From a virus: a stretch of DNA of 49,547 bases. Location: IMG/VR virus record IMGVR_UViG_3300002137_000213, positions 1-49,547 of that record. One strand, 5' to 3'. Position numbers and translations under genes: made by a program. Under the pieces are notes generated by a model. That model saw only the letters and a list, made by a program, of their open reading frames with translations. It did no database searches and was not told the origin of the DNA. Shown one piece after another: positions 3,564 to 48,718 of this stretch; position 1 is the first letter of the stretch; the number at the start of each line of letters is the position of its first letter.

Positions 3564-4028
3564 ATGCCTTGCATTTTGCGTGCTCCAACGGCGGCTGATT
3601 TTCCTCAAATCGACAGCCTTGGACGATGGTTTCAAGAGAACAGCTTGTATGAAGATTGCGGATGGTCCAGTGCTAAAGCGTTCCATTGGGTGCGGGAGGG
3701 CGAAAAATCCGACTCCTCCACCTTCATGGTAGTTGCTGAAGAAGACGGCATTATCGTCGGGTTCTTTCTTGGCAACATCGTTGAGTATTTCTTCTCGGAA
3801 AAGATTTTAGCTCAAGACCTAGTTTTGGTGTTTAAGCCTAGTTACAGAGATGGTATCGGTGATCACATTAGGACAATGATCGGCAATTTTTGTAATTGGG
3901 CGGAACAAAAAAATGCCCACGAAGTTTGCATTGGTATCACAAGCGGCATAGCCGGTAGTGGGTACGGGAAGCTAATAAAGCGTCTTGGCTTCAGTGAGGT
4001 CGGGACAATAATGAAACGAGAGGTATAA
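3564..4028 (+). CDS. GNAT-family N-acetyltransferase
   Basis: 154 residues. The N-terminus (ILRAPTAADFPQIDSL) is the typical first strand and helix of GNAT enzymes. FMVVAEEDGIIVGFFLG is the beta hairpin before the acetyl-CoA site, and YRDGIGDHIRTMIGNFCNWA the loop and helix equivalent to motif A. The C-terminal GYGKLIKRLGFSEVGTIMKREV is the usual final strand pair. Such genes are common among phage virion genes; their substrates are generally unknown. It follows the structured 3378-3563 region, so it could be controlled by it. Confidence 0.8.
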   Translation: MPCILRAPTAADFPQIDSLGRWFQENSLYEDCGWSSAKAFHWVREGEKSDSSTFMVVAEEDGIIVGFFLGNIVEYFFSEKILAQDLVLVFKPSYRDGIGDHIRTMIGNFCNWAEQKNAHEVCIGITSGIAGSGYGKLIKRLGFSEVGTIMKREV

Positions 4029-7364: not shown

Positions 7365-10300
7365 ATGCCCATTACCTCCGGCAAGTTGTATGACAAAGCA
7401 GCATATTGGGATGAGTTCTATGGGGATGGAAAGCCTCCTGCCCCGTTAAGCATAGACCTTCCGAGCGACAACTCGGGCAGCGATATGAACGACTTCAGCA
7501 AGGGTCTCTATGCTGGGGGCAATCAGATGCAAGCTCTCGGCAGCGGGCTAGTTGCCGCATACGGTTCGGTAACTGACAACGAGGACCTTCTTCAATCGGG
7601 CATGGAAGATTACGTCCGCAACATGAATGAGGCGAAATCCTACTCTGGCGCTGTTGTTAATTTTACAGACATTGGCTCGGCGAAAGATGCTGGAAGCTGG
7701 ATGGCGTATTCGCTAGGCACGCTGGTCCCTGATATCGCACTAATGATAGGCACAGGCGGAGTTGGTGGAGCAATAGCTAAGCAGGCAGTTACGCAGGGCG
7801 CAAAAGCATTTGCTGAAGCTCTGGCGAAACAGGGGGCGGAGGAGTTTGTTAAAGCTGGATTGGAAAAGGACGCGGCTGAATACATTGCAAAAGAGGCGGC
7901 AGCGAAAGTCATCCAAGCTAAAGCCGCAAAAGCAGCAGCAGTAACGGGGTTAGCCACCAGCGCAGTCGGCTCTGGACTTCAGGGGACAGGCGGCTCGTTT
8001 GCGGAAATCTTACAGCAGACCGGTGTTGAAGCTCCGTTTGCTGCGCTGGGTGTTGGTGTTGCTACTGGTGCGCTAGATGCCTTGCCGTTTATTAGGGTTT
8101 TTGACGGCATGTTTCCGGCAACTGCAAAGAAAGACTTTCAGGAGTTTATTGCCAGCCGTCTAGTCGACAATGCCCCGTGGAAAATACAAGCTCTCAAAGA
8201 CCTCATGGTGATCGGAGGTGCAGAGGTTGGCACCGAAGTGCTTCAAGCGCTCATTGAGCGTGACGCTATCACTTGGGTCAACAACAATTACGGCGAAGGT
8301 CCAGCGAAAGAGTACGGTCAGTTGCTAACGACAGAAGATGGTCGTCGCCAGTTGGTCAATGTGGCAGCGGTATCTTTGCTTGGCGGTACAGCGATTGCCG
8401 CGCCAACTATTGCAGCAAAGAAAGTCACAGGGCGGTACGACCGAGAAGTCAATTACGGCGACGATGCAAAGGTAGTTAGGACTGATACCGGCAGGGACCC
8501 TGAGTTTAGATCCAAGATAGAAGAGGTGCTCAATTTTTACGAGGACCCTGCCAATCAAGGCAAGACTCGGGTTGGTGACGAGGTCCAAAGTGAACGCCCT
8601 GTCGATCCCGTTACTGGCGAACTAGCCATAACATGGAATAAGGATGGCGCTCTAGACCCGAATACTAACCGTCCTTACATGCAAGAACAGACAAGCCAAG
8701 CGACAACTATAGGCGCTGACGCTTCAGAAGCCCCCGTAAATATCACGGAGGGAGCACTGCCAGCCGATCAGCAAAATTCAGCGGTCGGGGAAATACAACA
8801 ACCCCAAACTCAAGAATCATTGAGTACGGTTGTAGTGCCAGAAGCCAAGACACCATACGGTCCAGAGCATAGGTTCGACGCGCCACTCTCTGACGTTGCC
8901 ACTCCATACCAAGAGCAGCTATTACAGTTGTCTATTGTAGCGGCTACCCCAGAGGCGCAAGACCCCAGCAACCTCGACGTTGTTGTTGAGGCAATAGACC
9001 AAGATGACGTTGACAGGATATTCGATAGAAATGCGTCACTGATGATTCAAACGCCAGACCGCCCTAAAGGGAAAAGTCTGCCAACTATAGAAGAAGCGTT
9101 CGGCACTGAAGCGACCACTGTGACTAATGCGGTTGCAGGCGTCATGGCGGATCTAAGCGCTAGCGGCGTCCCCAAGCTGTTTATGGACAAGGTGACAGGG
9201 GTCTACGTTCATGATGATGCTGATGTAGAGGCACCGGCTATGACCGGTCAGCGCAGTAGGGGCGTGTCGTTTAGCCGGAGTCTTATTGGAGAGTCATTAC
9301 AGGGCGGTGACAAGCTAAGCGAGATGGCGTGGAGTATGACGCACGAAGTCTACCACGCGGCAGATTTCGACATGAACCTAAGCTCAAAGAACAAAGCTTT
9401 TGGTATGGAGATTAGTGATGAGGCTAGCGAGCCTAGCGTTGCCATGGGCGGTATCATGCGGGAGTTGTTTAACAACTGGCTTGACCAAACCCCAACAGGT
9501 AAGCGGTTCAACTATCCTTTCAATGACCTACAATCTGATATTCTGGACACGACAAAACCCAATGGCGGGCTAAATGCCAGATATCGTCAGGAGGTGTTTG
9601 CTCAGCTTGGCGCACTGTTCCACTCGAACCCTAAAGAGCTTCAAGCCGCTGCTCCATTGGCGTACAATTATATTAAGCAGGTTCGAGATGCGAATTTAAA
9701 GACAGCAAAACCCCCAGAGGTTATCAATGAAACTAGTGAAAATCCCCGCCCCGCCGACACCTCCCAACCTACAGGCATATCAGGACAAGTTCGGGCACCG
9801 CCAGTCGCCGGAAGCGACACGGGCGTACAGCCCAGATCAACTAGACCAGATGGCGAAGGAAGCGTTGTCCAAGGGCGAGCCGATACCCCTGTGGAGGGAT
9901 CGCCACAAGACACGACTGGGCAACGTCAACGACCAGATGTACAAAGATCTCCAGTAGCGGCAGAGTCGTCACGTACCGAGGTAATCCTCAAGGCTACTGA
10001 TAAGAAACCCACATTTAAGAAGGCAGATAACTGGGATGATACCGGCGAGCAGATCATCACGTTTGCCGATGGTGATCGCTACACAGTCTACTTTGACGAT
10101 GATGCGGCGGAGGCTGGCGCAGAGCAGTGGTACACCTCTGCTGACGGAACGTTTACTGGCGCTGAAGAGCTGCTGGGTCAGACCAAGGCAGAGACAATTA
10201 CTGCCTTGCAGGAACACCGCGAAAAATTATTAGCCGCCGGAAAAAATTCATACAACACCCCACTTGACCCTCAGGTAGGGAGAGAAACCTCCTTCAAAGC

Positions 10301-27076: not shown

Positions 27077-27321
27077 GCTGCCCACTCCATTCCTAGCATC
27101 TGTTTGATTTTGTACATCGACGACTTGTACTTGTTCCGCCGCAGCTTGCCGCCATCAGCTCTGTAGAAGGCGTAAGGCTTGTCCTTGCAGACGTTCTTGA
27201 TGCTGGTGTAGACGATGAACTCCTGCCCGTCGTCCTCAAGTGTTTGAAATGCGGACAGGCTGTGCGTCAAATGGATAGTTTGGCGCTGCTGCGGGTCGAG
27301 TTTGTAGATGTAGTATTTCAT
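27073..27321 (-). CDS. Small hypothetical protein
   Basis: 82 residues (RBS GGTGAG), overlapping neighbours on both sides by four bases, so part of a translationally coupled trio. It starts MKYYIYKLDP and ends with a basic segment (GGKLRRNKYKSSMYKIKQ) that could bind nucleic acid. No family recognised. Confidence 0.5.
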   Translation of the reverse strand: MKYYIYKLDPQQRQTIHLTHSLSAFQTLEDDGQEFIVYTSIKNVCKDKPYAFYRADGGKLRRNKYKSSMYKIKQMLGMEWAA

Positions 27322-27479
27322 GCGCTCACCTTCAATATGTGGAATTTCAGGACAATATCCAAGGTCTTCCCGAGCTGGATTATTTCCGCTTTGGCAAAAT
27401 CCTTGTTGACGTTTTCGTTGTCGAGCATGGTAAGGAGTACAGCCGCTAGGCTTTCGTAGGTGTTGTCTTGATCGGTCAT
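27318..27479 (-). CDS. 53-residue protein following a hammerhead motif
   Basis: Starts at ATG 27479, six bases after AGGAGG. Helical and acidic (TYESLAAVLLTMLDNEN). Its leader contains a hammerhead motif and a hairpin that encloses the RBS, so expression is probably controlled in RNA. Function unknown. Confidence 0.5.
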   Translation of the reverse strand: MTDQDNTYESLAAVLLTMLDNENVNKDFAKAEIIQLGKTLDIVLKFHILKVSA

Positions 27480-27480
27480 G

Positions 27481-27498
27481 ATTACCTCCTGCGGTAAT
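27481..27498 (-). promoter_or_regulatory. Shine-Dalgarno hairpin with GGA in the loop
   Basis: On the minus strand ATTACC (27498-27493) pairs with GGTAAT (27486-27481) around the six-base loop GCAGGA. The hairpin holds the Shine-Dalgarno sequence and has the form of a CsrA target (ANGGA in a loop over the RBS). Weaker analogues with GAGGA loops precede the genes starting at 28354, 30367, 31207 and 31492. Confidence 0.5.
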
Positions 27499-27504
27499 AG
27501 GTTT

Positions 27505-27564
27505 ACTAGGACGCCCATAGTCGGGCGTTTCGGCTGATAACCACTCAGCAGCTCATCGGCTAGC
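27505..27564 (-). ncRNA. Hammerhead ribozyme, type I, probably degenerate
   Basis: Minus strand: stem I GCTAG with CTAGT (27564-27560 and 27509-27505); core CCGATGA; stem II with loop GTGGTTA; GAAA; stem III ACGCCC/GGGCGT; then C17 with predicted cleavage between 27510 and 27509. The layout matches the second type I copy at 28382-28435. Two departures, core position U4 read as C and a two-base bulge in stem II, predict poor activity. Confidence 0.65.
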
Positions 27565-27600
27565 AAAAGCACAATTCCATGTTGCAAGGTTTGGGTAAGG

Positions 27601-27897: not shown

Positions 27898-28079
27898 GCT
27901 TCGTCCTCTTCGTCATCTTCGTCCTCTATTTGGGGTATTAGATTGTCCCATCCGTAAGCGATGCTCTGCTCTTCCACCCATTCGGCAGAGGTGTCGCCTA
28001 ATTCCTCGGGCGTCCATAGAATTACGGCGTAGCCTTGATCGGTTAGTTCACGCAATGCGGTTAAATGTGCGGCGTTCAT
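27894..28079 (-). CDS. Small acidic hypothetical protein
   Basis: 61 residues, overlapping both neighbours by ATGA. LRELTDQGYAVILWTPEELGD, then EWVEEQSIAYGWDNL, and a strongly acidic tail (IEDEDDEEDEA). Small phage proteins with a YAV...TPEELG motif are common but uncharacterised. Confidence 0.55.
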   Translation of the reverse strand: MNAAHLTALRELTDQGYAVILWTPEELGDTSAEWVEEQSIAYGWDNLIPQIEDEDDEEDEA

Positions 28080-28354
28080 GCTGTCACCTCCGCTTTGTAT
28101 CTAGCCAAGTCTCTCGCCGATGTTTTTATGTTGCTCTCCATTCTGTCGATCTTGTAATCAGAAAGCCCCGCAACAATTTCTCGAATTAATGTTTGGGCGC
28201 TATCCTGCGCGGCTATTTGTGCGTTGATGCCTAGTTGGGCGGAAGCGTGGTGTGAATTTTGCTCAGCCTTATATATCGCGGTTAAATCGTCGAGACTGAA
28301 CTGCCCGATAAGCCGCTGCACTGCGCCTGAAATGATTTTTCGTTTGATTTCCAT
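28076..28354 (-). CDS. Helical hypothetical protein following a hammerhead ribozyme
   Basis: 92 residues, RBS GAGGAGG in a small hairpin, with the ribozyme at 28382-28435 in its leader. Predicted mostly helical (SAQTLIREIVAGLSDYKID). First of a coupled three-gene set. Unknown function. Confidence 0.5.
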   Translation of the reverse strand: MEIKRKIISGAVQRLIGQFSLDDLTAIYKAEQNSHHASAQLGINAQIAAQDSAQTLIREIVAGLSDYKIDRMESNIKTSARDLARYKAEVTA

Positions 28355-28381
28355 TTGATTGCCTCCTCGGCGATTTGGTTA

Positions 28382-28435
28382 TCTAGGACGCCTCGCGGCG
28401 TTTCGACCGGTTACCGTCCGGTCTCGTCAGCTAGA
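28382..28435 (-). ncRNA. Hammerhead self-cleaving ribozyme, type I
   Basis: All conserved elements are present on the minus strand. Stem I TCTAG/CTAGA (28435-28431 with 28386-28382); core CTGACGA (28430-28424); stem II GACCGG/CCGGTC with loop ACGGTAA; GAAA (28404-28401); stem III ACGCC/GGCGT capped by a GCGA tetraloop; C17 at 28387. Predicted cleavage lies between 28387 and 28386. Cleavage would release the mRNA of the gene at 28354 with a short leader and leave the ribozyme on the upstream fragment. Confidence 0.88.
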
Positions 28436-28468: not shown

Positions 28469-28487
28469 CTATGCAACATGCTCCAAT

Positions 28488-28553
28488 AGGGAAGCACTAC
28501 AGTTACCGAGCGGACACAGCAAAGCAGCCAAGTAGTGCTGGCTGCCTTAGATG
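28488..28553 (-). pseudogene. Remnant similar to the 3' end of the ArdC-like gene
   Basis: The segment from AGGGAAGCACTAC to GGCTGCCTT parallels 29144-29205 inside the ArdC-like gene's 3' end, starting and ending with nearly identical runs and diverged in the middle with indels. The reading frame is broken. It is probably the tail of a lost duplicate. The rest of 28436-28637 shows no gene. Confidence 0.45.
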
Positions 28554-28637: not shown

Positions 28638-29069
28638 TTAAACGTCGCGCCACTCGCCATCAGCGTCTTTTACAACATTGACAGTGGGTTCCTGCACCTG
28701 AACCCAGCGGTTTTTTTGTTGACCATTTGCGTACCGAGAAGTCACGTCACTGTCCAGTCTCTCACCGGCTCGGTCATAGACCTCTTGGCAAAACGCGGTG
28801 CGCAGATAGGTGATTACTATGATGCCGCCTTTGCCGTAGTTCAGGCAGAACCAGCCAAGCTGAACGCCGTCACTCTTCGAGGCTATGAGGTAGTCCGCGC
28901 CGGTACAGGTCAGGGATTCGATAACCTCATCGCGACTGTCTGAGAGACTAATCACATTTTTATACGTGCCGTCGTTGACCGTAATGCAGGCGTCTCGGCT
29001 GAGTATTTCCTCGACCAAGTACTGGACGCCGACCTTGTCAGCATCCCAGTTTCCAGATTCTATTTTCAT
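28638..29069 (-). CDS. Hypothetical protein
   Basis: 143 residues, RBS AAGGAG. Beta-rich appearance (YLIASKSDGVQLGWFCLNYG, IIVITYLRTAF), with a C-terminal NRWVQVQEPTVNVVKD segment. No family recognised. It lies between the ArdC-like gene and its apparent remnant. Confidence 0.5.
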   Translation of the reverse strand: MKIESGNWDADKVGVQYLVEEILSRDACITVNDGTYKNVISLSDSRDEVIESLTCTGADYLIASKSDGVQLGWFCLNYGKGGIIVITYLRTAFCQEVYDRAGERLDSDVTSRYANGQQKNRWVQVQEPTVNVVKDADGEWRDV

Positions 29070-29109: not shown

Positions 29110-30009
29110 TTAGGCGGCTAAAACTCTATGGCTTGCAGAGTCTAGGGAAGCACTACCGTTATCGTCTAGATACTGCACAGCAGCAGATGCCTGCTTGGCT
29201 GCCTTGACGATATGCTTAGGGTCTGACTTGAGCGACTTGAGCCACGATTTTATGTATGACTCATGCTGCAAGCCTTCGTAGGGTAAACCTAGCAACGCAC
29301 CGCCCATCGCGGCGCCTAGCTCTGCGACCAATTCCTCGAATGCGTAACCCTCAGAGCCAAAGGAGTTCAGGATCTGACGCTTGAGGCGTGAGGTGTGACC
29401 TGTCCAATGCACCATCTCATGCAGCAGGGTGGCGTCGTGGTTCGCCTCATCTTTAAAGGCATCGACTGACGGCATCTTGATGACATCCTGAGATGGGATG
29501 AAGCAGGCAGTATCACCGCCGTATTGCAGATTGATGCCAAGAGACTCAGCCAGTCGATTGACCGAGCCAGTACCGGCTGCCGGTGGGGTGTAAGTCTTGA
29601 TGCCCTGTAACCCTTCGATCTGTGCCACGTTCCAGACTGGAAAGCACTTGTTAATGAAGCCGGTCTTGGCGTCTCCGGTGGCTTTGTCCTTATAGCTAGA
29701 CCGCGCCATGAACCAGACATATTCGCACCCGCCGTTTTCGTCCTTGGATGATGGCACCTTGCCGCCTAGTGCAGTTGCCTGCTTGTAGGTCATCCAGCCA
29801 TTGCTGCCCCACTTGGCGGACGCCATGCTGAGATTTATCCAGTTGATGCCGGAGTAAGGTCGCCCCGTGCTGGCATTGTGTGGCACGCTGCCGTCGAAAA
29901 TGTGCGCCCACGGTTTGCGCCAGTCGCTGGCGTTTTCTAGGTTGGCGATGATTCGGTCAGTGACCACTTGAAACATGTCTTCATATTTGCTCATTTGTAA
30001 TTCCATCAT
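29110..30009 (-). CDS. ArdC-like antirestriction protein (ssDNA-binding + zincin)
   Basis: 299 residues from ATG 30009, chosen because GAGG lies six bases upstream; an ATG at 30117 gives a non-homologous extension. The N-terminal DUF1738-type domain shows PWAHIFDGSVPHNASTGRPYSGIN and KCFPVWNVAQIEG. The zinc metallopeptidase-like domain follows with HEMVHWTGH (H197, E198, H201) and FEELVAELGAA. ArdC of conjugative plasmids protects incoming DNA against restriction and binds ssDNA. In a phage it would shield the genome early in infection. Strong family match. Confidence 0.88.
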   Translation of the reverse strand: MMELQMSKYEDMFQVVTDRIIANLENASDWRKPWAHIFDGSVPHNASTGRPYSGINWINLSMASAKWGSNGWMTYKQATALGGKVPSSKDENGGCEYVWFMARSSYKDKATGDAKTGFINKCFPVWNVAQIEGLQGIKTYTPPAAGTGSVNRLAESLGINLQYGGDTACFIPSQDVIKMPSVDAFKDEANHDATLLHEMVHWTGHTSRLKRQILNSFGSEGYAFEELVAELGAAMGGALLGLPYEGLQHESYIKSWLKSLKSDPKHIVKAAKQASAAVQYLDDNGSASLDSASHRVLAA

Positions 30010-30079
30010 TGAATCCTCAGGTCTAAGTTGAAAAAAATGTGGCGGGAGAAACAAAACACCCCCCCAGTCCCGAATGCCC

Positions 30080-30367
30080 TCATACGTGATAACAGACCGC
30101 GTAACTGGTATATCCATGGATAGCCTTATACTGCCTGTCGAAGTGCTGACACTCTCGGGTGGGGAGCTGCTCAGCGAAATCGTTCATCCTGTCGACCAGC
30201 TTCGACTCTGCCCGCTCATGCCGCTCGCGCAGTCGCGCACCGTTGGCGCTGTGCTCGTCTTCGGTGTCCCATACTCGCTGGTGTGTCTCGAGCAGATCGC
30301 TGTAGCGGCGATCCAAGTTATAGAGCTGCTGGAATCGCTTGGTGTACTTCTCATGTAGTGCTTGCAT
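30080..30367 (-). CDS. Coiled-coil hypothetical protein
   Basis: 95 residues, RBS GAGGAGG. Charged helices with YTKRFQQLYNLDRRYSDLLE and GARLRERHERAESKLVD suggest a coiled coil. A terminator separates it from the preceding gene. Function unknown. Confidence 0.5.
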   Translation of the reverse strand: MQALHEKYTKRFQQLYNLDRRYSDLLETHQRVWDTEDEHSANGARLRERHERAESKLVDRMNDFAEQLPTRECQHFDRQYKAIHGYTSYAVCYHV

Positions 30368-30400
30368 GGTTGCCTCCTCGGCGGTTGAATAAATACAATA

Positions 30401-30423
30401 AAAGCCACTCGGTGAGTGGCTTT
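30401..30423 (-). terminator. Rho-independent terminator
   Basis: AAAGCCACTC and GAGTGGCTTT form a perfect 10-bp stem with a three-base loop. On the minus strand the stem is followed by TATTGTATTTATT. It ends or attenuates transcription of the upstream small-gene group before the 30367 gene. Confidence 0.75.
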
Positions 30424-30434
30424 GATGTGCTTAC

Positions 30435-30716
30435 TCAGTGAAAGCTGCGGTGATTCTTGATTGACCACTTCTCGATCACTGGCTGCCCATAGTCATCCGC
30501 GTCAACGACGATATAGGCGACCGTCTTTTTGACGTTGGCATACCGCCACCCAGAGTCATGCAGTGGTTTGAGCTGAACCCATACCCTGTGAGGGTAGTTG
30601 ACTACCGGCAGCCAGCTATCGGCAGGGCTGTTCGGCTCATACTCGAAGTCGTTGCCATTGCTGAGCTGGAAGCTGCCTACCAGTCGCTGCATAACATCCC
30701 ACGGTGCCAGACTCAT
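30435..30716 (-). CDS. Hypothetical protein
   Basis: 93 residues, start overlapping the preceding stop. Aromatic and beta-rich (YPHRVWVQLKPLHDSGWRYA, VAYIVVDADDYG). Followed by the terminator at 30401. Not recognised. Confidence 0.5.
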   Translation of the reverse strand: MSLAPWDVMQRLVGSFQLSNGNDFEYEPNSPADSWLPVVNYPHRVWVQLKPLHDSGWRYANVKKTVAYIVVDADDYGQPVIEKWSIKNHRSFH

Positions 30717-31031: not shown

Positions 31032-31207
31032 AGTGCCAACTCCTTTGACTTCTGGGTGAAGGTGTAGCCCAGTTGCTTCATCAGCGCTCGGGTCTGGTCG
31101 GTCAGTGTTTTGGTGCCAGCAATGCGGGCGAAAGTGTCACCGACGTGACAGGTTGGGTAGACGTTGATAACGCCGTAGACATTTTTTACTTCGACAGTGA
31201 TTTGCAT
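31028..31207 (-). CDS. Small hypothetical protein
   Basis: 59 residues from ATG 31207 (GAGGAGG upstream). MQITVEVKNVYGVINVYP is a beta hairpin-like start, followed by a helix (LTDQTRALMKQLGY). Preceded by a GCGCC/GGCGC hairpin at about 31232-31250. Function unknown; its leader and first codons are duplicated at 30880. Confidence 0.5.
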   Translation of the reverse strand: MQITVEVKNVYGVINVYPTCHVGDTFARIAGTKTLTDQTRALMKQLGYTFTQKSKELAL

Positions 31208-31261
31208 GGGTGCCTCCTCAGGCGGGTTGTTAAGCGCCCTCATTGAAGGCGCAATTAGTGC

Positions 31262-31492
31262 TTACCATCCGCAGACTTCTGATTTCTGCTCTGCTTTTAG
31301 ATCTCGGTATTCGTCCATTTCTTTTTTGACTTCATTCCAAGGCATCAGTCCAGACTTGCCCTCGAATTCCGAGTAGTGAATAAAGTCATTCCATTCAGCG
31401 CCCCCAAAACACTCGACAAAAATGTCCATTCCTTTGTCGTAATTTGCTTCGGCGTAGGCTTTTGCTTTATCGATAATCTGCTGTGCGTTCAT
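31262..31492 (-). CDS. Hypothetical protein following the type III hammerhead
   Basis: 76 residues, RBS GAGGAGG inside a GCCT/AGGC mini-hairpin. Acidic and helical (IDKAKAYAEANYDKGMDIFVE is split by a turn), then WNDFIHYSEFEG. First coding gene of the leftward accessory operon; the ribozyme at 31509-31560 lies in its leader. Unknown function. Confidence 0.55.
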   Translation of the reverse strand: MNAQQIIDKAKAYAEANYDKGMDIFVECFGGAEWNDFIHYSEFEGKSGLMPWNEVKKEMDEYRDLKAEQKSEVCGW

Positions 31493-31508
31493 GGTGCCTC
31501 CTCAGGCT

Positions 31509-31560
31509 AGTGTTTCGATCTGGCTGATCTCATCAGTGCGCCATATAAGACGCAGACACT
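31509..31560 (-). ncRNA. Hammerhead self-cleaving ribozyme, type III
   Basis: Minus strand order: AGTGT (31560-31556) then C17 (31555); stem I TGCGTC/GGCGCA with loop TTATAT; core CTGATGA (31536-31530); stem II GATC/GATC with loop AGCCA; GAAA (31516-31513); and ACACT overlapping it (31513-31509) to close stem III with AGTGT. Predicted cleavage lies between 31555 and 31554. All core bases match the hammerhead consensus. It sits 17 bases upstream of the 31492 start and near the 5' end of the operon transcript. Confidence 0.88.
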
Positions 31561-31638
31561 TGAATGGGTCTTGCCGCTTCACCCGTCGCATCTGCTCTAT
31601 CACAGTCTCTCGGGGTGCCCCTAGCCCTCTAGGTCGGA

Positions 31639-31655
31639 TCTGGTAAATTACCAGA
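31639..31655. promoter_or_regulatory. Near-perfect 17-bp palindrome, candidate operator
   Basis: TCTGGTAA and TTACCAGA surround one A. It lies just downstream of the leftward promoter candidate, where a bound repressor could block the accessory operon. Confidence 0.45.
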
Positions 31656-33977: not shown

Positions 33978-34378
33978 CGTCATTTGTTCGTAACAGCGGC
34001 AGGTGCAGCCAGTGCAGGTATGAAGCGGACAAGAAGCGTCACAACGCAACCTTGTCTGGATACCTGACCATGCGTTTAACGGCTTTAAAACGCCGCCACA
34101 AGAACGCTAGTTACCCTGGGGTCCCAGTATCCCTAGACGATTTACTCAAGCTATACGACGATCAGAGGGGTATTTGCGCCATTTCTGGCATCCCCATGCA
34201 CTATACGCACAAACATTCAGACATGTCGATCAGTCCAGACAGGGTTGACCGTGACAAAGGCTATGAAGACGGCAATGTCAGGCTTGTTTGTGTCCGGGCT
34301 AACTTTATGAGAAGCACTTTAGACGACGAAGATTTCGCGTGGTGGTGCCGAGCGGTGGTGAACAACCTTGGAATTTGA
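33926..34378 (+). CDS. HNH endonuclease next to terminase
   Basis: 150 residues from a TTG inside the previous gene; no better start exists. A zinc ribbon (CNVCGADK ... CSQCR) is followed by the nuclease core CAISGIPMHY, SPDRVDRDKGYEDGNVRLVC, with the D-R-x-D...KGY..GNV pattern of the HNH family. HNH proteins beside TerL assist cos cleavage in several phages; a free-standing homing nuclease is the alternative. Confidence 0.75.
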   Translation: MEIDYKKCNVCGADKLLTSFVRNSGRCSQCRYEADKKRHNATLSGYLTMRLTALKRRHKNASYPGVPVSLDDLLKLYDDQRGICAISGIPMHYTHKHSDMSISPDRVDRDKGYEDGNVRLVCVRANFMRSTLDDEDFAWWCRAVVNNLGI

Positions 34379-35948
34379 GCAAGCGGCAGCAAAACTGAAG
34401 AAAAACTTCCCTTTGTACGCGAAGAACGTGCTGAAAATTGTCGATAAGACGGGAGAAAGGCGCGCATTTGTGTTGAATGAAGCCCAGCTTTACGTCCATA
34501 ACAAGCTGGAAACGCAGTTAAAAGATCAGGGAAACATCCGTGCGCTGGTGCTAAAGGCGAGGCAAACGGGCATATCGACGTACTCGCAGGGTCGAAACTT
34601 CTGGAAAGTGACGCAAAATAGAAACGCCAATGCTTTCGTGCTGTCTCACTTGGCGGAATCCACCAACGCTATTTTCAACATGGTCAAATACTTTTATGAC
34701 AATGTCCCCCATGCAGCTTTTGCGCCTCCGCTCGCTTCTCAGTCCGCGTCAACTTTGGTATTTGAGGAGATCAATAGCCGCTACCGCGTTGGAACAGCCC
34801 GCTCGACGCAGACTGGACGGGGACAAACAAACCGATTTGTCCACGGGTCAGAAGTTGCCTTCTACCCCCAAGGATCAGACATAGTCGCGGGTCTCTTGCA
34901 GACTGTCGGCGGAGTCAACACCGAGGTTATTCTGGAGAGCACGGCGAATGGTGCTGGCGGATGGTTTTACGATCAGGTCATGAAGTCTCTGCGGGGTGAG
35001 TCCGAGTGGATCACCTGCTTTATACCGTGGTTCTGGATGCCTGAGTACCGTAGGACCCCGTCTCCATATTTTGTGGTTACGCCCGAAGAGTACGAGCTTG
35101 CTAAGCGGTTCAATCTAGACGATTCCCAACTGGCTTTTCGGCGGGCAAAGCTGGACGAGCTGGGCGGGACTGATTTGTTCCGACAGGAGTACCCGTCAAC
35201 GCCGCTAGAGGCTTTCTTGACGTCGGGCAGGTGCTTTGTTGAGGACTCCCACTTAACAAACAGTGAGAACGATTGCTACACGGCTGATTTTAAAGGGGAG
35301 ATTCGCGGAGGAAAGATAAGCGACCGGTCCTATGGACCATATCAAGAATGGTATCCCCCTCTTGGCGATGACAACTACGCCATTGGCGTAGACGTTGCAG
35401 AAGGGTTGGCATACGGCGACTACAGTTGCGCTCAAGTTCTTGATTCTCAAGGCAGGCAGGTAGCGTGCTGGCATGGTCATATAGACCCATGGGAGTGGGG
35501 CAATGTGGTCGCCCAGATAGGGCAGAGATACAACAACGCTTACGTTATCGTCGAGCGAAACAACCACGGTTTGACCACTCTTCGCAGGCTGATGGAGCTT
35601 AGTTACGGCAACCTTTTTGTCGAGCATTCTGTCGATGGGGCTTACGCTGACAAGGCGACCAAACGCGGTGGTTTTTTGACCACCTCAAAAACAAAACCGC
35701 TCATCATTGACAACCTCGCAGCGCTACTGAGGCAGGGTCAATCTGGCATCAGTGACATTGAATTAGTTAATGAATTACGCACGTATGTCATTGATGATAA
35801 AGGGGCTTTCAATTCTCAGCGGGGGTGCTATGATGACCGTGTGATGGCTTACGCTATCGCCCTGCATGGACTTGCCTCAATGCCTCGCCCGAGGTACAGA
35901 TCGACAACACGTCGGTTTAAAACGGTTGATTCTGTTGCAGGCTATTAA
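34368..35948 (+). CDS. terL: Terminase large subunit
   Basis: 526 residues from a TTG overlapping the HNH gene. ATPase domain: Walker A-like LKARQTGIST (62-71) and a hydrophobic strand followed by VFEEINSRY. RNase H-like nuclease domain: GVDVAEG, VERNNHG and YDDRVMAYA supply the acidic residues. The enzyme pumps DNA into the prohead through the portal and cuts the concatemer. The stop overlaps the portal start. Confidence 0.93.
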   Translation: MEFEQAAAKLKKNFPLYAKNVLKIVDKTGERRAFVLNEAQLYVHNKLETQLKDQGNIRALVLKARQTGISTYSQGRNFWKVTQNRNANAFVLSHLAESTNAIFNMVKYFYDNVPHAAFAPPLASQSASTLVFEEINSRYRVGTARSTQTGRGQTNRFVHGSEVAFYPQGSDIVAGLLQTVGGVNTEVILESTANGAGGWFYDQVMKSLRGESEWITCFIPWFWMPEYRRTPSPYFVVTPEEYELAKRFNLDDSQLAFRRAKLDELGGTDLFRQEYPSTPLEAFLTSGRCFVEDSHLTNSENDCYTADFKGEIRGGKISDRSYGPYQEWYPPLGDDNYAIGVDVAEGLAYGDYSCAQVLDSQGRQVACWHGHIDPWEWGNVVAQIGQRYNNAYVIVERNNHGLTTLRRLMELSYGNLFVEHSVDGAYADKATKRGGFLTTSKTKPLIIDNLAALLRQGQSGISDIELVNELRTYVIDDKGAFNSQRGCYDDRVMAYAIALHGLASMPRPRYRSTTRRFKTVDSVAGY

Positions 35949-43843: not shown

Positions 43844-46800
43844 ATGGCAATTCAGTTCTCGAACCTAGCTAGCACAGTGCTGGCTAGTGGCGTTTCCAAT
43901 TCGGCAACGTCTGTTAGTGTAGCAAATGCGTCATTGTTTCCTTCATTGGGAGCGGGTGATTATTTTTACGCGACCATTGGTTTAGGATCTGGATCTGAAA
44001 TTGTCAAGGTCACGGCGGTATCGGGAACAACCTTTACCGTTGTCAGGGGGCAAGACAATACGTCCGCTGTGAGTCACCTAAGTGGCGCAGAATTGGCTTT
44101 GCGCGTTACGGCTAAGTCACTTGAAGATATTCGCGATTCCGTAGGCACTGCCATAAGCAATCTGGTAGACACGGCTCCTGCTACGTTAGATACGTTGAAT
44201 GAACTAGCAGCAGCTCTTGGTGATGATCCTAACTTTGCTACTACGGTTGCAAGCTCTATTGCCACCAAGCTGCCCCTTGCTGGCGGTACGCTGACCGGCA
44301 CGCTTGCGATGGGTGCTAATGCGATTACTAGTACAGGAACTATCTCTAGTGGGGCTATAACCAGTACAGGTTCTTCAACTGTAGATACCTTAACAGTTGG
44401 CACTGGAAGTAACACTGGGGTTTTAAATCTCAAAACTTATGATGATGCCGCAAACACATGGAATCTTTATGTGTGGAATGATGACACTCTGCGGTTTAAT
44501 TATAACGGTGCGGGGGCAGATGAATTTGTTTTAAATAGCTCAGGTAATGCAACTTTTACAGGCACTATCTCTAGTGGGGCTATAACCAGTAGCGGATCTT
44601 CACAATTACAGGCTTTGACAATAAAGGGCGGTGCAGCCACAACAACAGAAAGCGTGTTGACCTTTGAAAACTACGCTGACACAGCGCATATAAAAAGCAA
44701 ATACACAAATCCTAGCGCAACTGCTGAAACATATTTAGCTTTTTATACAAATAAATCGGGAGAAACCAACGGAACTGTGTCAGAAAGCATGAGGCTTTCA
44801 GGTAATAATTTAAGTGTTAATGGCACAATCTCTAGTGGGGCTATTACAGCGTCCAGCTTCAAAGACTCAGCTGACGCTACCTATTACGCTGAATTTGCAA
44901 ATACCACACTTAGTGGAAAGTTTAGACAGTTTGTTGTAGTTGGTGACGGTACACAGGGAGCGACAAACGATGGCAGTTGGGGTGCAAGATTAAATGTAAC
45001 AGATGATGTTCACGCTAAAATTGAGGTCAACCAAGACGCAAACTCTATGCGATCTCATTGGTATGCTCACACTGGTCACGACTCAATTAAATTTGGCACA
45101 TCTACAGAGCATGATGTTGAGATTGTTAGAGGCAATGCTACTAAAATAGAAGCGCAGTCTGATGGTGCAAATATTACAGGCAATTTGAAAGTTGGCGGCG
45201 TTGTAACAATAAACTCTAGCCGTCAGTTACGGTCTATAAACGCTATTTACAACACCAGTGACGTTCAGATAATGGATTTGAGTCACGTTACTTACACCAT
45301 CCTAAAAGACCCAGAAGGTTCAATCAGAATGTATCTGGGTGATACAGGTGATGCAGGAAACTATTACGATAATACCGCGCATAACTTTAGAAATAGAGCG
45401 GCGGCGGCTCAAGTTCAAATTAGCGATGGCGGGGTAAACTTACAAAATACTTCTGCCACTTACAAGGTTCAAGGAACCACAGTAATAGACTCTAGTAGAA
45501 AGTTTTACTTTGAGACTGAGCTTCACGGTAATAGTAAAAAGATATTTAGCACTGGTGACAGCTACCTAAGAATAAACCAAGGAAGTGAGTTTAGTTCTGG
45601 CATATGGCTAGGCTCATCAACCCTTATGACTTCTGATGGTTATATAGCCGCAGGGAGTAATGGCGGCACAACAACCTCTCGCGTTTACATTAAGTCAGGG
45701 ACATACAACGGCACGAACGTCATTGCGATAGATGGGACTGATGGGAAGATACAAGGTTCTTATTACAGAGTTGGCACCACCACAGTAATAGACTCAAGCC
45801 GCAACCTGACTAACATCGGCACTATTTCTAGTGGGGCTATAACCAGTAGTAGCACAGGGTCATTTACGGGTAATGTATCTGCTAATGGCGTTACTATCGG
45901 AGCATCTGATGTAAGAAGTGGTAGTAACCTTTTGACTATTGGAGGCACCTCAGAGGTAGTCAGGATTCATTCTGGTAATTTTGATCTAACGTCTGGCGAA
46001 TTAAAGGTTGGCGGCACCACAGTAATAGACTCAAGCCGAACCCTAACGGCAATAGCGGCAGTAGATAGCAATTTATACTTGGCAAGTAATAGGGCTTTAT
46101 CTTCCTCTACTACGGGCGGAACCGCTCGCATTCTATTTCCGGGAAATGGATCACATGCACAAGGAGGTTCTACCGCAACTGGAGCGATAAAAATCGTACT
46201 GCCTGTCGGCATGACCAACACAATGGTCACTATAAAAGGAATAGTGTACGAGTACTCCACCAATCGGTCTTTTGAGTTTTGTGTAGGGGGATACAATTAT
46301 CCAAGTGGCAATACATGGCAACATAGTCCGTTTGGCTACATAACAACTTCAGTATTAAACACTAGAACGTATAATATAAGATTTGGTTTTGATGGATCTA
46401 AGGCTTGCATTTATATTGGAGACACAAACACTGTCTGGTCTTATCCACAGGTATCAATTACAGAATGCACCGCCGGTTATAGTGCTTACGGCGCTAGCAG
46501 TTGGGATGACGGTTGGGACGTATCTTTTGAAACGACCCTTCAAAACGTAACTCATACCATATATGCCGCCGACGCTAACTCTGGACACCAAAGAGTTTTG
46601 AATTTTGATGCGGCATCTTTTTCTGTCGGCACTACCACCGTTATAGACGTCAGCCGTAACCTGACTAACATAGGCACTATCTCTAGTGGGGCTATTACCA
46701 GTACAGGCACAGTCTCAGCAACAGGCGGCAACTCCACCAACTGGAACACAGCTTACACGGTAGCAAATGCTGCGCTACCAAAAGCTGGTGGTACGCTGAC

Positions 46801-48718
46801 TGGCAACCTTAACACTTCAGGTTCTGGTAATTATGTTCTTATTGGAGGTTCTGAAAGTAATAATGCGTATAACACAGTCCCCGCCACTACTGGGCTTATG
46901 TTTGGTGGGGCTAATGACCCTAACAACTATTCCATCGGGACGAGTTCACAAGACATAGGCGGTAACTACACCAAGCTAAATATTAAGTGGCATACCGGAT
47001 TGCGATTCTTTTCTATGCCACAGTATGGAGGAGCCAGATTCTATTCTGACGCTGCAATGACTACTGAAACTTTCAGTATCAATAACCTAGATGGGCATGT
47101 TCGCGTTAAAAACAATCTATATGCGAATAATGGACAGCTAGTCTGGAACGCAGGCAACGACGGCTCAACCTCCGGTTTAGACGCTGACTTATTGGATGGT
47201 CAGCAAGGTTCTTACTACTTCAGCTCGGCTAACTACCCAGAGCGAACGAACTTCGAGAATGTCTATAACAACCTAAGTACAAGCACGGGTGCTTCAGCTA
47301 ACCTTAATACTGTTTTCCAAAACTCGAGGTCAGGATTTATCGACTGTTGGAGTGGGACCAACCTTCCATCTGGCGCAAGTCACGTTCAAGGCATTCAGGC
47401 ACGACATCAAAGCGGGGATCACTACGGGTTTCAACTGGTTAATCAATACAGCCAACAGCAGGTGTGGCACAGGCAAGTTAGCAATAGCACCTTTGGGGCT
47501 TGGAATAAAATTTGGTCTAGCTCAACTGACGGCTCTGGCTCTGGCTTAGATGCTGATCTTTTGGATGGTATTGATTCTAGCGCTATTGTCTACGGTGCTA
47601 GCGGATACGGCACTACAAATCTTGGCTTTGCTTCGATGACTAATCAAAAGTCAGGTTTTTACGATACTGTTAGTAGCGGCACACCTACAGCAACTTGGTA
47701 CTCTTTGGTAAATATGGCGCATTATGGGGCGAATCATGGACATCAAATTGCTGGTTCGTTCTACTCTGCGGGAGATTTGTATAACAGAAACAATAGTAAC
47801 ACTAGTTTAAGTGCATGGGCAAAAATATACAATACAGCTAACGACGGCTCAGGTTCTGGCTTAGATGCTGATTTGTTAGATGGGATGCAAGCACATACTG
47901 GCAGAAATAATGAAGCAAACAAGGTAGTTCGTACTGACGCAAATGGCTACATTCAAGCTGGTTGGATTAATACCCCCTCAGGAAACCACGCAAGTACTAT
48001 TACAAGAATTACCGCGAGTAATGATGATTATTTAAGATATGTTACTCCCGCTCAGTTTAGGGTGCAAGTAATTGATGGATATTATCTGCCTATCGGCGGG
48101 ACTGCTGCCCGTGCCACTAGGGGCAATGGTAGTTTCTATTTGGACGATAACTACGGCAACAGTATTATTGGGGCGTACTCTTCCACCAGATACCAAGGCG
48201 TTTACTCTATGGGTAGCGCATACGTATTACCCGCTGACGGAACAACCACAGGTAGTCTATATGGTATGGCTTGGTCACACCCAAATGCTGGTGGCGCTGC
48301 TGGAAACCTCACGGATCATGGTTTGTTAATCATCAACAATGGCGGCTTTCGCTGCGCTATTTCTAACTCTATTGTTGCCTCCGGCAATATTACTGCCTAC
48401 TCAGATGAGCGATTAAAGAAGAACTGGCGCAATATGCCGGAAAATTTTGTGTCTCGTTTAGCTGAGGTTAAAGTCGGTATATATGACCGTATTGACGAAG
48501 AGAATGGTACGCAGGTCGGCGTGTCAGCTCAGTCTCTCCAAGAGCTTTTACCCGAAGCAATTACAACTGCGAAGGATGAGATTGGAACTTTATCAGTTAA
48601 CTATGGCGGTGCCGCATTAGCTTCGGCAGTAGAGTTAGCCAAGGTTATTGTGGAGCAAGAAAAACGCATAGAAAGGCTAGAACGCCTTATCGAAAAACTA
48701 ACAGGAGAAACATTATGA
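43844..48718 (+). CDS. Long tail fibre with C-terminal peptidase S74 self-cleaving chaperone
   Basis: 1624 residues. The N-terminal domain (ASTVLASGVSNSATSVSVAN, then IVKVTAVSGTTFTVVRGQD) is a common virion anchor. The shaft contains repeats TGTISSGAITS and DGSGSGLDADLLDG. The C-terminal SGNITAYSDERLKKNW carries the S74 Ser-Lys motif (S1520 in SDERLKKN), followed by a coiled-coil trimeric chaperone ending RIERLERLIEKL. S74 domains help the fibre trimerise and then cleave themselves off before the Ser. Receptor binding presumably lies just before residue 1500. Confidence 0.9.
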   Translation: MAIQFSNLASTVLASGVSNSATSVSVANASLFPSLGAGDYFYATIGLGSGSEIVKVTAVSGTTFTVVRGQDNTSAVSHLSGAELALRVTAKSLEDIRDSVGTAISNLVDTAPATLDTLNELAAALGDDPNFATTVASSIATKLPLAGGTLTGTLAMGANAITSTGTISSGAITSTGSSTVDTLTVGTGSNTGVLNLKTYDDAANTWNLYVWNDDTLRFNYNGAGADEFVLNSSGNATFTGTISSGAITSSGSSQLQALTIKGGAATTTESVLTFENYADTAHIKSKYTNPSATAETYLAFYTNKSGETNGTVSESMRLSGNNLSVNGTISSGAITASSFKDSADATYYAEFANTTLSGKFRQFVVVGDGTQGATNDGSWGARLNVTDDVHAKIEVNQDANSMRSHWYAHTGHDSIKFGTSTEHDVEIVRGNATKIEAQSDGANITGNLKVGGVVTINSSRQLRSINAIYNTSDVQIMDLSHVTYTILKDPEGSIRMYLGDTGDAGNYYDNTAHNFRNRAAAAQVQISDGGVNLQNTSATYKVQGTTVIDSSRKFYFETELHGNSKKIFSTGDSYLRINQGSEFSSGIWLGSSTLMTSDGYIAAGSNGGTTTSRVYIKSGTYNGTNVIAIDGTDGKIQGSYYRVGTTTVIDSSRNLTNIGTISSGAITSSSTGSFTGNVSANGVTIGASDVRSGSNLLTIGGTSEVVRIHSGNFDLTSGELKVGGTTVIDSSRTLTAIAAVDSNLYLASNRALSSSTTGGTARILFPGNGSHAQGGSTATGAIKIVLPVGMTNTMVTIKGIVYEYSTNRSFEFCVGGYNYPSGNTWQHSPFGYITTSVLNTRTYNIRFGFDGSKACIYIGDTNTVWSYPQVSITECTAGYSAYGASSWDDGWDVSFETTLQNVTHTIYAADANSGHQRVLNFDAASFSVGTTTVIDVSRNLTNIGTISSGAITSTGTVSATGGNSTNWNTAYTVANAALPKAGGTLTGNLNTSGSGNYVLIGGSESNNAYNTVPATTGLMFGGANDPNNYSIGTSSQDIGGNYTKLNIKWHTGLRFFSMPQYGGARFYSDAAMTTETFSINNLDGHVRVKNNLYANNGQLVWNAGNDGSTSGLDADLLDGQQGSYYFSSANYPERTNFENVYNNLSTSTGASANLNTVFQNSRSGFIDCWSGTNLPSGASHVQGIQARHQSGDHYGFQLVNQYSQQQVWHRQVSNSTFGAWNKIWSSSTDGSGSGLDADLLDGIDSSAIVYGASGYGTTNLGFASMTNQKSGFYDTVSSGTPTATWYSLVNMAHYGANHGHQIAGSFYSAGDLYNRNNSNTSLSAWAKIYNTANDGSGSGLDADLLDGMQAHTGRNNEANKVVRTDANGYIQAGWINTPSGNHASTITRITASNDDYLRYVTPAQFRVQVIDGYYLPIGGTAARATRGNGSFYLDDNYGNSIIGAYSSTRYQGVYSMGSAYVLPADGTTTGSLYGMAWSHPNAGGAAGNLTDHGLLIINNGGFRCAISNSIVASGNITAYSDERLKKNWRNMPENFVSRLAEVKVGIYDRIDEENGTQVGVSAQSLQELLPEAITTAKDEIGTLSVNYGGAALASAVELAKVIVEQEKRIERLERLIEKLTGETL
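44336..46705 (+). repeat. Five direct repeats of about 28 bp in the tail fibre gene
   Basis: GGCACTATCTCTAGTGGGGC-type copies begin near 44336, 44561, 44822, 45817 and 46673 and encode TISSGAIT. Nearly identical nucleotides suggest recombination or duplication between fibre segments. A second family (GLDADLLDG) occurs at ~47160, 47530 and 47845. Confidence 0.8.

Follow-up and report, generated by a model that had tools for sequence, protein, structure and literature searches.

Hammerhead ribozymes between the small genes of an environmental tailed phage operon: candidate elements of protein-free mRNA processing

A minus-strand operon of small genes in an environmental tailed phage carries at least three hammerhead ribozymes (HHRs), all on the minus strand and each lying immediately 5' of a small ORF with its Shine-Dalgarno site. 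The window analysed here is the whole stretch of 49,547 nucleotides of IMG/VR record IMGVR_UViG_3300002137_000213. Sequence comparison makes it likely that the element at 28382-28435, HHR1, is a functional type I hammerhead that cuts the polycistronic small-gene transcript between cistrons, a protein-free form of mRNA processing. A broader proposal, on which our judgment is evenly balanced, is that in a clade of environmental tailed phages HHRs would substitute for RNase III and divide the small-gene operon into messages of one gene, each beginning near a dedicated Shine-Dalgarno hairpin, with the ribozyme type set by position in the operon, the ribozyme body protecting message ends, and the spacer doubling as a cassette boundary. 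Within this picture we infer cleavage in vivo, cutting of hairpins by RNase III, and an influence on how stable the messages are and how they are translated.

Read on the minus strand from 28435 to 28382, HHR1 consists of the 5' strand of stem I, TCTAG (28435-28431), the core CTGACGA (28430-28424), a 6-bp stem II, GACCGG (28423-28418) and CCGGTC (28410-28405), around the loop ACGGTAA, then GAA (28404-28402), a 5-bp stem III, ACGCC-GCGA-GGCGT (28401-28388), closed by a GNRA loop, C17 (28387), and the strand CTAGA (28386-28382), which completes the 5-bp stem I. All invariant bases of a type I core (C3 U4 G5 A6 N7 G8 A9 / G12 A13 A14 / A15.1-U16.1 / H17) are present, the last three elements being GAA, the pair A28401-T28388, and C28387. 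Stems II and III are loop-closed and stem I is open, as the MFE structure and covariation in relatives both indicate. When folded in isolation, the RNA has precisely the hammerhead structure as its MFE fold (frequency 0.46, z -2.0). Within 186 nt of context, formation of stems II and III is at 0.79-1.0 and that of stem I, which is not dominant there, at 0.35-0.4. A 3-bp pseudoknot is predicted on the minus strand (28377-28415) between GGU of loop II (28415-28413) and ACC of the 3' flank (28379-28377); many relatives have 4-7 bp. Direct reading and the fold thus agree with the sequence-only reading in the type I assignment, the core, the three stems, the GCGA loop, the strand, and the distance to the ATG at 28354, and the cut it predicted between 28387 and 28386 is the one expected from C17 at 28387.

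The search with Rfam hammerhead models that had been suggested as a check gave a match slightly below the cut-off: Hammerhead_1 (RF00163) scored 32.9 bits, with an E of 7.7e-7 over 201 nt and 6.7e-5 over 17.5 kb, against a gathering score of 34, which is a search threshold and not a biological feature. As HHR1 lies 1.1 bits under this curated cut-off, a default Rfam scan is empty. Our own model R1, to whose seed HHR1 itself belongs, gave 70.4 bits. HHR1 resembles RAGATH-1 (RF03152) in having a type I core, a linker rich in A, and a hairpin upstream; membership was rejected at 27.8 bits, far under the cut-off of 56.3, and with an upstream hairpin region that is unconserved in the L056 ortholog described below. 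No tRNAs or other known RNAs were found near HHR1. By every sequence test available, HHR1 is a real hammerhead.

Downstream of HHR1 the Shine-Dalgarno mini-hairpin GCC-GAGGA-GGC (28361-28371, minus strand) precedes the ATG of a 92-aa gene (28076-28354, minus strand), which has no match in Pfam or PHROG. Its ortholog in contig L056, 64% identical, also has a type I HHR in front. Identity between the window and L056 is 84.5% from HHR to ATG, 70.7% in the coding region, and 34% in the region 5' of the HHR. The core, stems I and III, the pseudoknot flank, and the Shine-Dalgarno hairpin are retained, and stem II is rewritten by compensatory paired changes plus one bulge. Judged from this comparison, the conservation is what selection on an RNA produces. 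Upstream of HHR1 and on the same strand lie the genes 28638-29069 and 29110-30117 and further ones, and a relic of an ArdC gene 3' end (28487-28528, minus strand, 79% identical to 29143-29184) is a probable trace of cassette insertion 5' of HHR1. The gene 29110-30117, within the hammerhead operon, encodes an ArdC-type antirestriction protein with a zincin-like metallopeptidase domain; antirestriction genes are also reported to adjoin hammerheads in Agrobacterium and Legionella (PMC3088659). HHR1 is therefore an internal intercistronic element and not an operon leader. The phage operon setting given by the sequence-only reading is supported, its leader position is incorrect, and the processing role that it suggested is supported by comparison. 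That reading recognized HHR1 correctly and overlooked HHR2 and HHR3 (below), as well as the Shine-Dalgarno hairpin and the fact that long hairpins exchange with HHRs.

The first element of the operon is instead HHR2, a type III hammerhead at about 31508-31561 (minus strand), with a predicted cut between 31555 and 31554. It scored 36.7 bits (E 8.3e-5; match at 31507-31562) with Rfam Hammerhead_3 (RF00008) in a permissive scan and 69.1 bits with our model R2, whose seed includes it, and was recovered independently by our own descriptor, for which shuffled sequence held no perfect-core matches. It is followed by the Shine-Dalgarno hairpin GCCT-GAGG-AGGC (31496-31507) and a 76-aa gene (31262-31492), both on the minus strand. 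Next on this strand, at 31205-31252, come a shortened intercistronic hairpin, GCGCCTTCAATGAGGGCGC, the Shine-Dalgarno hairpin GCCTGAGGAGGC (31212-31223), and the ATG of a gene encoding MQITVEVKN... Further along, a long irregular hairpin similar to an RNase III site (class A, below; 30386-30437, minus strand), recognized by its fold and by family comparison, precedes a Shine-Dalgarno hairpin (30372-30382) and the gene 30080-30367. Beyond HHR1 lies HHR3 (27504-27565, minus strand), a type I hammerhead with the core CCGATGA (U4C), a 2-nt bulge in stem II, and a predicted cut between 27510 and 27509; it scored 63 bits with R1, to whose seed it belongs. The Shine-Dalgarno hairpin ATTACC-GCAGGA-GGTAAT (27481-27498, minus strand) follows, before the ATG at 27479 of a 53-aa gene (27318-27479, minus strand). 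In their core, helices, and type, HHR1 and HHR2 are like Hammerhead_1 and Hammerhead_3, respectively, with scores under the gathering cut-offs.

Several other features were observed in and around the leader. The sequence GTGAAGCGGCAAGACCCA or a close variant is conserved directly 5' of type III hammerheads, at 31565-31582 (minus strand) in the window and in L030, L035, L046, L048, and L049, and the class B leaders described below have a common motif GAAAGC..GCGAGTA; both motifs are possibly another leader RNA element. The palindrome CTGGTAATTTACCAG at 31640-31654, approximately 80 bases 5' of the type III hammerhead, is a likely operator of the minus-strand operon. Elsewhere in the window, units of 30-46 bases are repeated at 44321-46710, inside a 1624-aa ORF (43844-48718), and the repeat copies are arranged differently in the near-identical contigs L005 and L010.

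Homologs of the genes 28076-28354 and 31262-31492 in viral contigs were found in near-identical contigs only, and TerL (34368-35948), 3 kb from the hammerheads, proved a better bait, yielding 80 relatives from IMG/VR; no near-DNA relatives were found among isolated phages. The models R1 (12 type I seeds) and R2 (seven type III seeds) include the three HHRs of the window, and their 19 seeds match by construction since the models were built from them. In the TerL loci R1 gave 50 matches at E<0.001 and R2 gave 11. A module pattern, the HHR core plus CCTGAGGAGG, matched 32 viral contig stretches, which added 69 type I and six type III matches. The total is 104 distinct HHR-plus-flank sequences, approximately 100 of them outside the window; the contigs overlap by common ancestry, so these are counted as distinct sequences and the counts are not independent. 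With R1, nine type I HHRs lie within 4.2 kb of L034, and L068 has nine to ten. At gathering scores Rfam reported no hammerheads in the window or in L034, L024, L062, and L049, perfect-core relatives included, and none in L034 even at E 0.1. No type I HHR was present in seven phage-record loci with relatives of TerL, ArdC, or the small genes, and an exact-pattern search detected no HHR/Shine-Dalgarno module in bacterial genomes. Most proteins encoded after HHRs had no match in Pfam. Two contigs fetched by pattern alone suggest that the arrangement of HHR and Shine-Dalgarno hairpin may extend beyond the TerL clade: a type III HHR (L140, a 75-kb contig, 553-606) and a type I HHR (L143, about 8345-8407, minus strand) each precede a start resembling the Shine-Dalgarno hairpin, the former with a low score and the latter with no score in the TerL-clade models.

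The helices of the phage HHRs covary strongly. In alignments of 44 and 54 distinct type I HHRs, fitted to R1, which was built partly from them and therefore favors pairing somewhat, 97.9% and 98.8% of helix cells are paired; none of 500 shuffles come near these values, and slid controls reach 22-49%. Two-sided changes occur in 15 of the 17 helix pairs. Loop II is complementary to the sequence 3' of stem I (UGGU/ACCA, UAGUU/AACUA, GGGU/ACCC, UGAGG/CCUCA), the complementary run having a mean of 4.14 nt versus 3.37 +/- 0.11 with permuted flanks, and the same pseudoknot between stems I and II is described for fast HHRs by Perreault et al. (PMC3088659). Departures from the core are few: U4C, in HHR3 and three further phage HHRs; the paired U3-A8; and an additional A in CUGAAUGA. 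According to the same source (PMC3088659), activity is known for the U3-A8 variant, and a viroid HHR with U4C is slow in vitro and nonetheless infectious. On these comparisons the phage HHRs look active. The core TTGATAA, with paired C3U and G8A changes, occurs in L003 (8350-8408) and L108 (R1 match 3607-3667), with different stem III sequences. The inserted core A (CTGAATGA) is seen in L011, L068, and L092 and recurs in five otherwise complete sequences, the helices being otherwise intact.

That the HHR motif is a chance match or a decayed inactive remnant is scarcely credible. HHR1 does lie under the Rfam gathering score and HHR3 does have a core substitution, as such an explanation would expect, and a loose core-only pattern was no better than shuffles, so that helices and comparison are needed to recognize an HHR here. 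However, a strict HHR descriptor found 25 cases in the 841 kb of the window and its relatives versus none in five Markov replicates, and both the strong covariation and the conserved L056 locus stand against this explanation.

Downstream of nearly all HHRs lie a Shine-Dalgarno mini-hairpin, which covaries, and then a small gene. A mini-hairpin presenting GAGG comes after 97 of the 104 distinct HHRs, in variants such as GCCT-GAGG-AGGC, ATCCT-GAGG-AGGAT, AATCT-GAGG-AGATT, and ATACCT-GAGG-AGGTAT. Its fourth pair, which may be GC, AT, TA, or CG, is Watson-Crick in 42 of 48 HHR-linked cases of the TerL set versus 17.5 expected from base composition. We found no published description of this hairpin in a limited literature search.

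At genes that lack an HHR, a long irregular hairpin usually stands in its stead. Among 83 Shine-Dalgarno hairpins without an HHR, 43 are preceded by a long irregular hairpin of at least 17 bp and at most 16 unpaired bases, versus 4.8% of dinucleotide shuffles; an earlier, loose 15-bp rule separated poorly from shuffles and controls, and the stricter criterion was therefore adopted. By the criteria used, 40 of 169 Shine-Dalgarno hairpins have neither element. Two classes, defined after inspection of the data, were distinguished: class A, AGUAA-N-CAC..[10-bp upper stem]..UAUUGUAUUUAUU, with an upper stem that covaries in eight of nine pairs, and class B, GAGUUGAUUUG..[11-bp]..CAAAAUCAAUU. Both have the form of an RNase III site, with an internal loop separating two stems of approximately 10 bp each, as in the T7 R1.1 site between genes 1.0 and 1.1, which is approximately 50-60 nt in length with two stems and an internal loop (PMC6121014). 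The hairpins are probably RNase III sites; unlike such sites, HHRs need no protein. The class A hairpins could also be terminators, one of them having scored as terminator-like. Ten gene families have HHR leaders in some cases and hairpin leaders in others, and four have both type I and type III HHRs.

In these data the type of element follows its position. In the 24 contigs with a type III HHR (14) or a class B hairpin (ten), which were selected by having one of these and are the same data in which the rule was seen, that element is always first, no contig has both, and all 94 elements further on are type I HHRs (51) or class A hairpins (43). Contigs that begin with a type I HHR are mostly truncated upstream. 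An apparent later type III match in L006 was discarded, as it overlaps a type I HHR of L006 and has an E of 0.93. In L113 (6315-6390) the first gene has promoter-like sequence near the same Shine-Dalgarno hairpin and no HHR or long hairpin was found there; the transcription start itself may supply the message end.

Under the proposed processing role, cleavage of HHR1 after C17 (28387) would give an upstream message whose 3' end is folded into stems II and III and carries a 2',3'-cyclic phosphate. The first bases of the downstream message would be 5'-OH-CUAGAUAACC, approximately 15 nt before the Shine-Dalgarno mini-hairpin and the ATG. Processing of the operon leader would occur at either a class B hairpin or a type III hammerhead, and of the junctions between genes at type I hammerheads or class A hairpins doing the same job, each followed by the same Shine-Dalgarno hairpin. 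The first message would keep the body of a type III ribozyme at its 5' end, and a message that precedes a type I ribozyme would keep that ribozyme's body at its 3' end. A possible reason for the position rule is that, with type III staying with the downstream product and type I with the upstream product, each message end would retain a folded ribozyme body. Some precedent exists (PMC3088659): cleavage is seen in vitro for tandem prophage HHRs and, for one set, in E. coli as well. In halovirus HF2, a transcript has a 5' end that maps at most 3 nt from its HHR site.

Cleavage might instead be a regulatory off-switch that parts the downstream genes from their leader and lowers their expression, perhaps under the control of a protein or of conditions. 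The Shine-Dalgarno site is held in a hairpin, the cut would leave a short 5'-OH leader, and the core of some HHRs is altered in ways, U4C among them, for which slower cleavage has been published. We nevertheless regard a switch as unlikely, as the constitutive-looking core and pseudoknot and the presence of up to nine copies per operon are better suited to general processing, long hairpins replace HHRs at the same place, and the L113 gene lacking a detected HHR or hairpin has the same Shine-Dalgarno hairpin. It is most improbable that paired HHRs serve to release RNAs, linear or circular, as end products in the manner of retrozymes or circRNAs. Tandem HHRs could excise unit-length RNAs, but the spacing follows the enclosed gene, each unit is an ordinary Shine-Dalgarno site, ATG, and ORF, and Perreault et al. 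report that tandem phage HHRs gave none of the circular or spliced RNAs that they looked for (PMC3088659).

Near-identical phages differ by whole units at the HHR/Shine-Dalgarno spacers. L006, 98% identical, is without the gene 31262-31492, which lies exactly between two Shine-Dalgarno repeats, and its HHR2 is joined directly to the Shine-Dalgarno hairpin of the next gene; it also has an additional HHR before ArdC, where the window has none. An additional stretch of approximately 870 bp with two further HHR modules is present in L003, L004, and L005 at the 3' end of ArdC (29156-29177 in the L003 comparison). These differences (the missing gene and the extra HHR of L006, the 870 bp of L003) would also be expected if the spacers acted as DNA, the common Shine-Dalgarno/HHR sequence providing homology for cassette swapping and ribozyme activity being incidental. 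This explanation is improbable, however, as homology would not need the paired substitutions by which the helices, the pseudoknot, and the Shine-Dalgarno hairpin change, and the position rule, type III first and type I internal, is left unexplained. Processing between cistrons remains the reading that we prefer.

Clustered prophage HHRs and the processing idea have been known since 2011, from the triple array at ardA of Agrobacterium and from Clostridium scindens and Azorhizobium caulinodans (Perreault et al. 2011, PMC3088659). Those clusters are like the phage arrays in that same-strand HHRs lie on either side of single small genes, one of them for antirestriction, have stem I-II pseudoknots and U3-A8 and U4C variants, and were proposed to process mRNA (PMC3088659). 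Here, up to nine type I HHRs occur in 4.2 kb and the order is strict, with a fixed downstream Shine-Dalgarno hairpin and exchange with long irregular hairpins, features that the consulted parts of that source do not describe. The dense arrays, the position rule, the hairpin exchange, and the Shine-Dalgarno hairpin appear to be new. Given that standard Rfam cut-offs missed all HHRs in the scanned loci, phage genomes probably contain more such arrays than are on record. The role of HHRs in bacteria and phages has been a question since their discovery there in 2011. The phages described here offer natural comparisons, in which the same gene family stands behind an HHR of either type or behind a hairpin of the protein-cut style, and near-identical genomes occur with and without a given ribozyme; with these, whether HHRs are mRNA processors becomes a matter for direct experiment.
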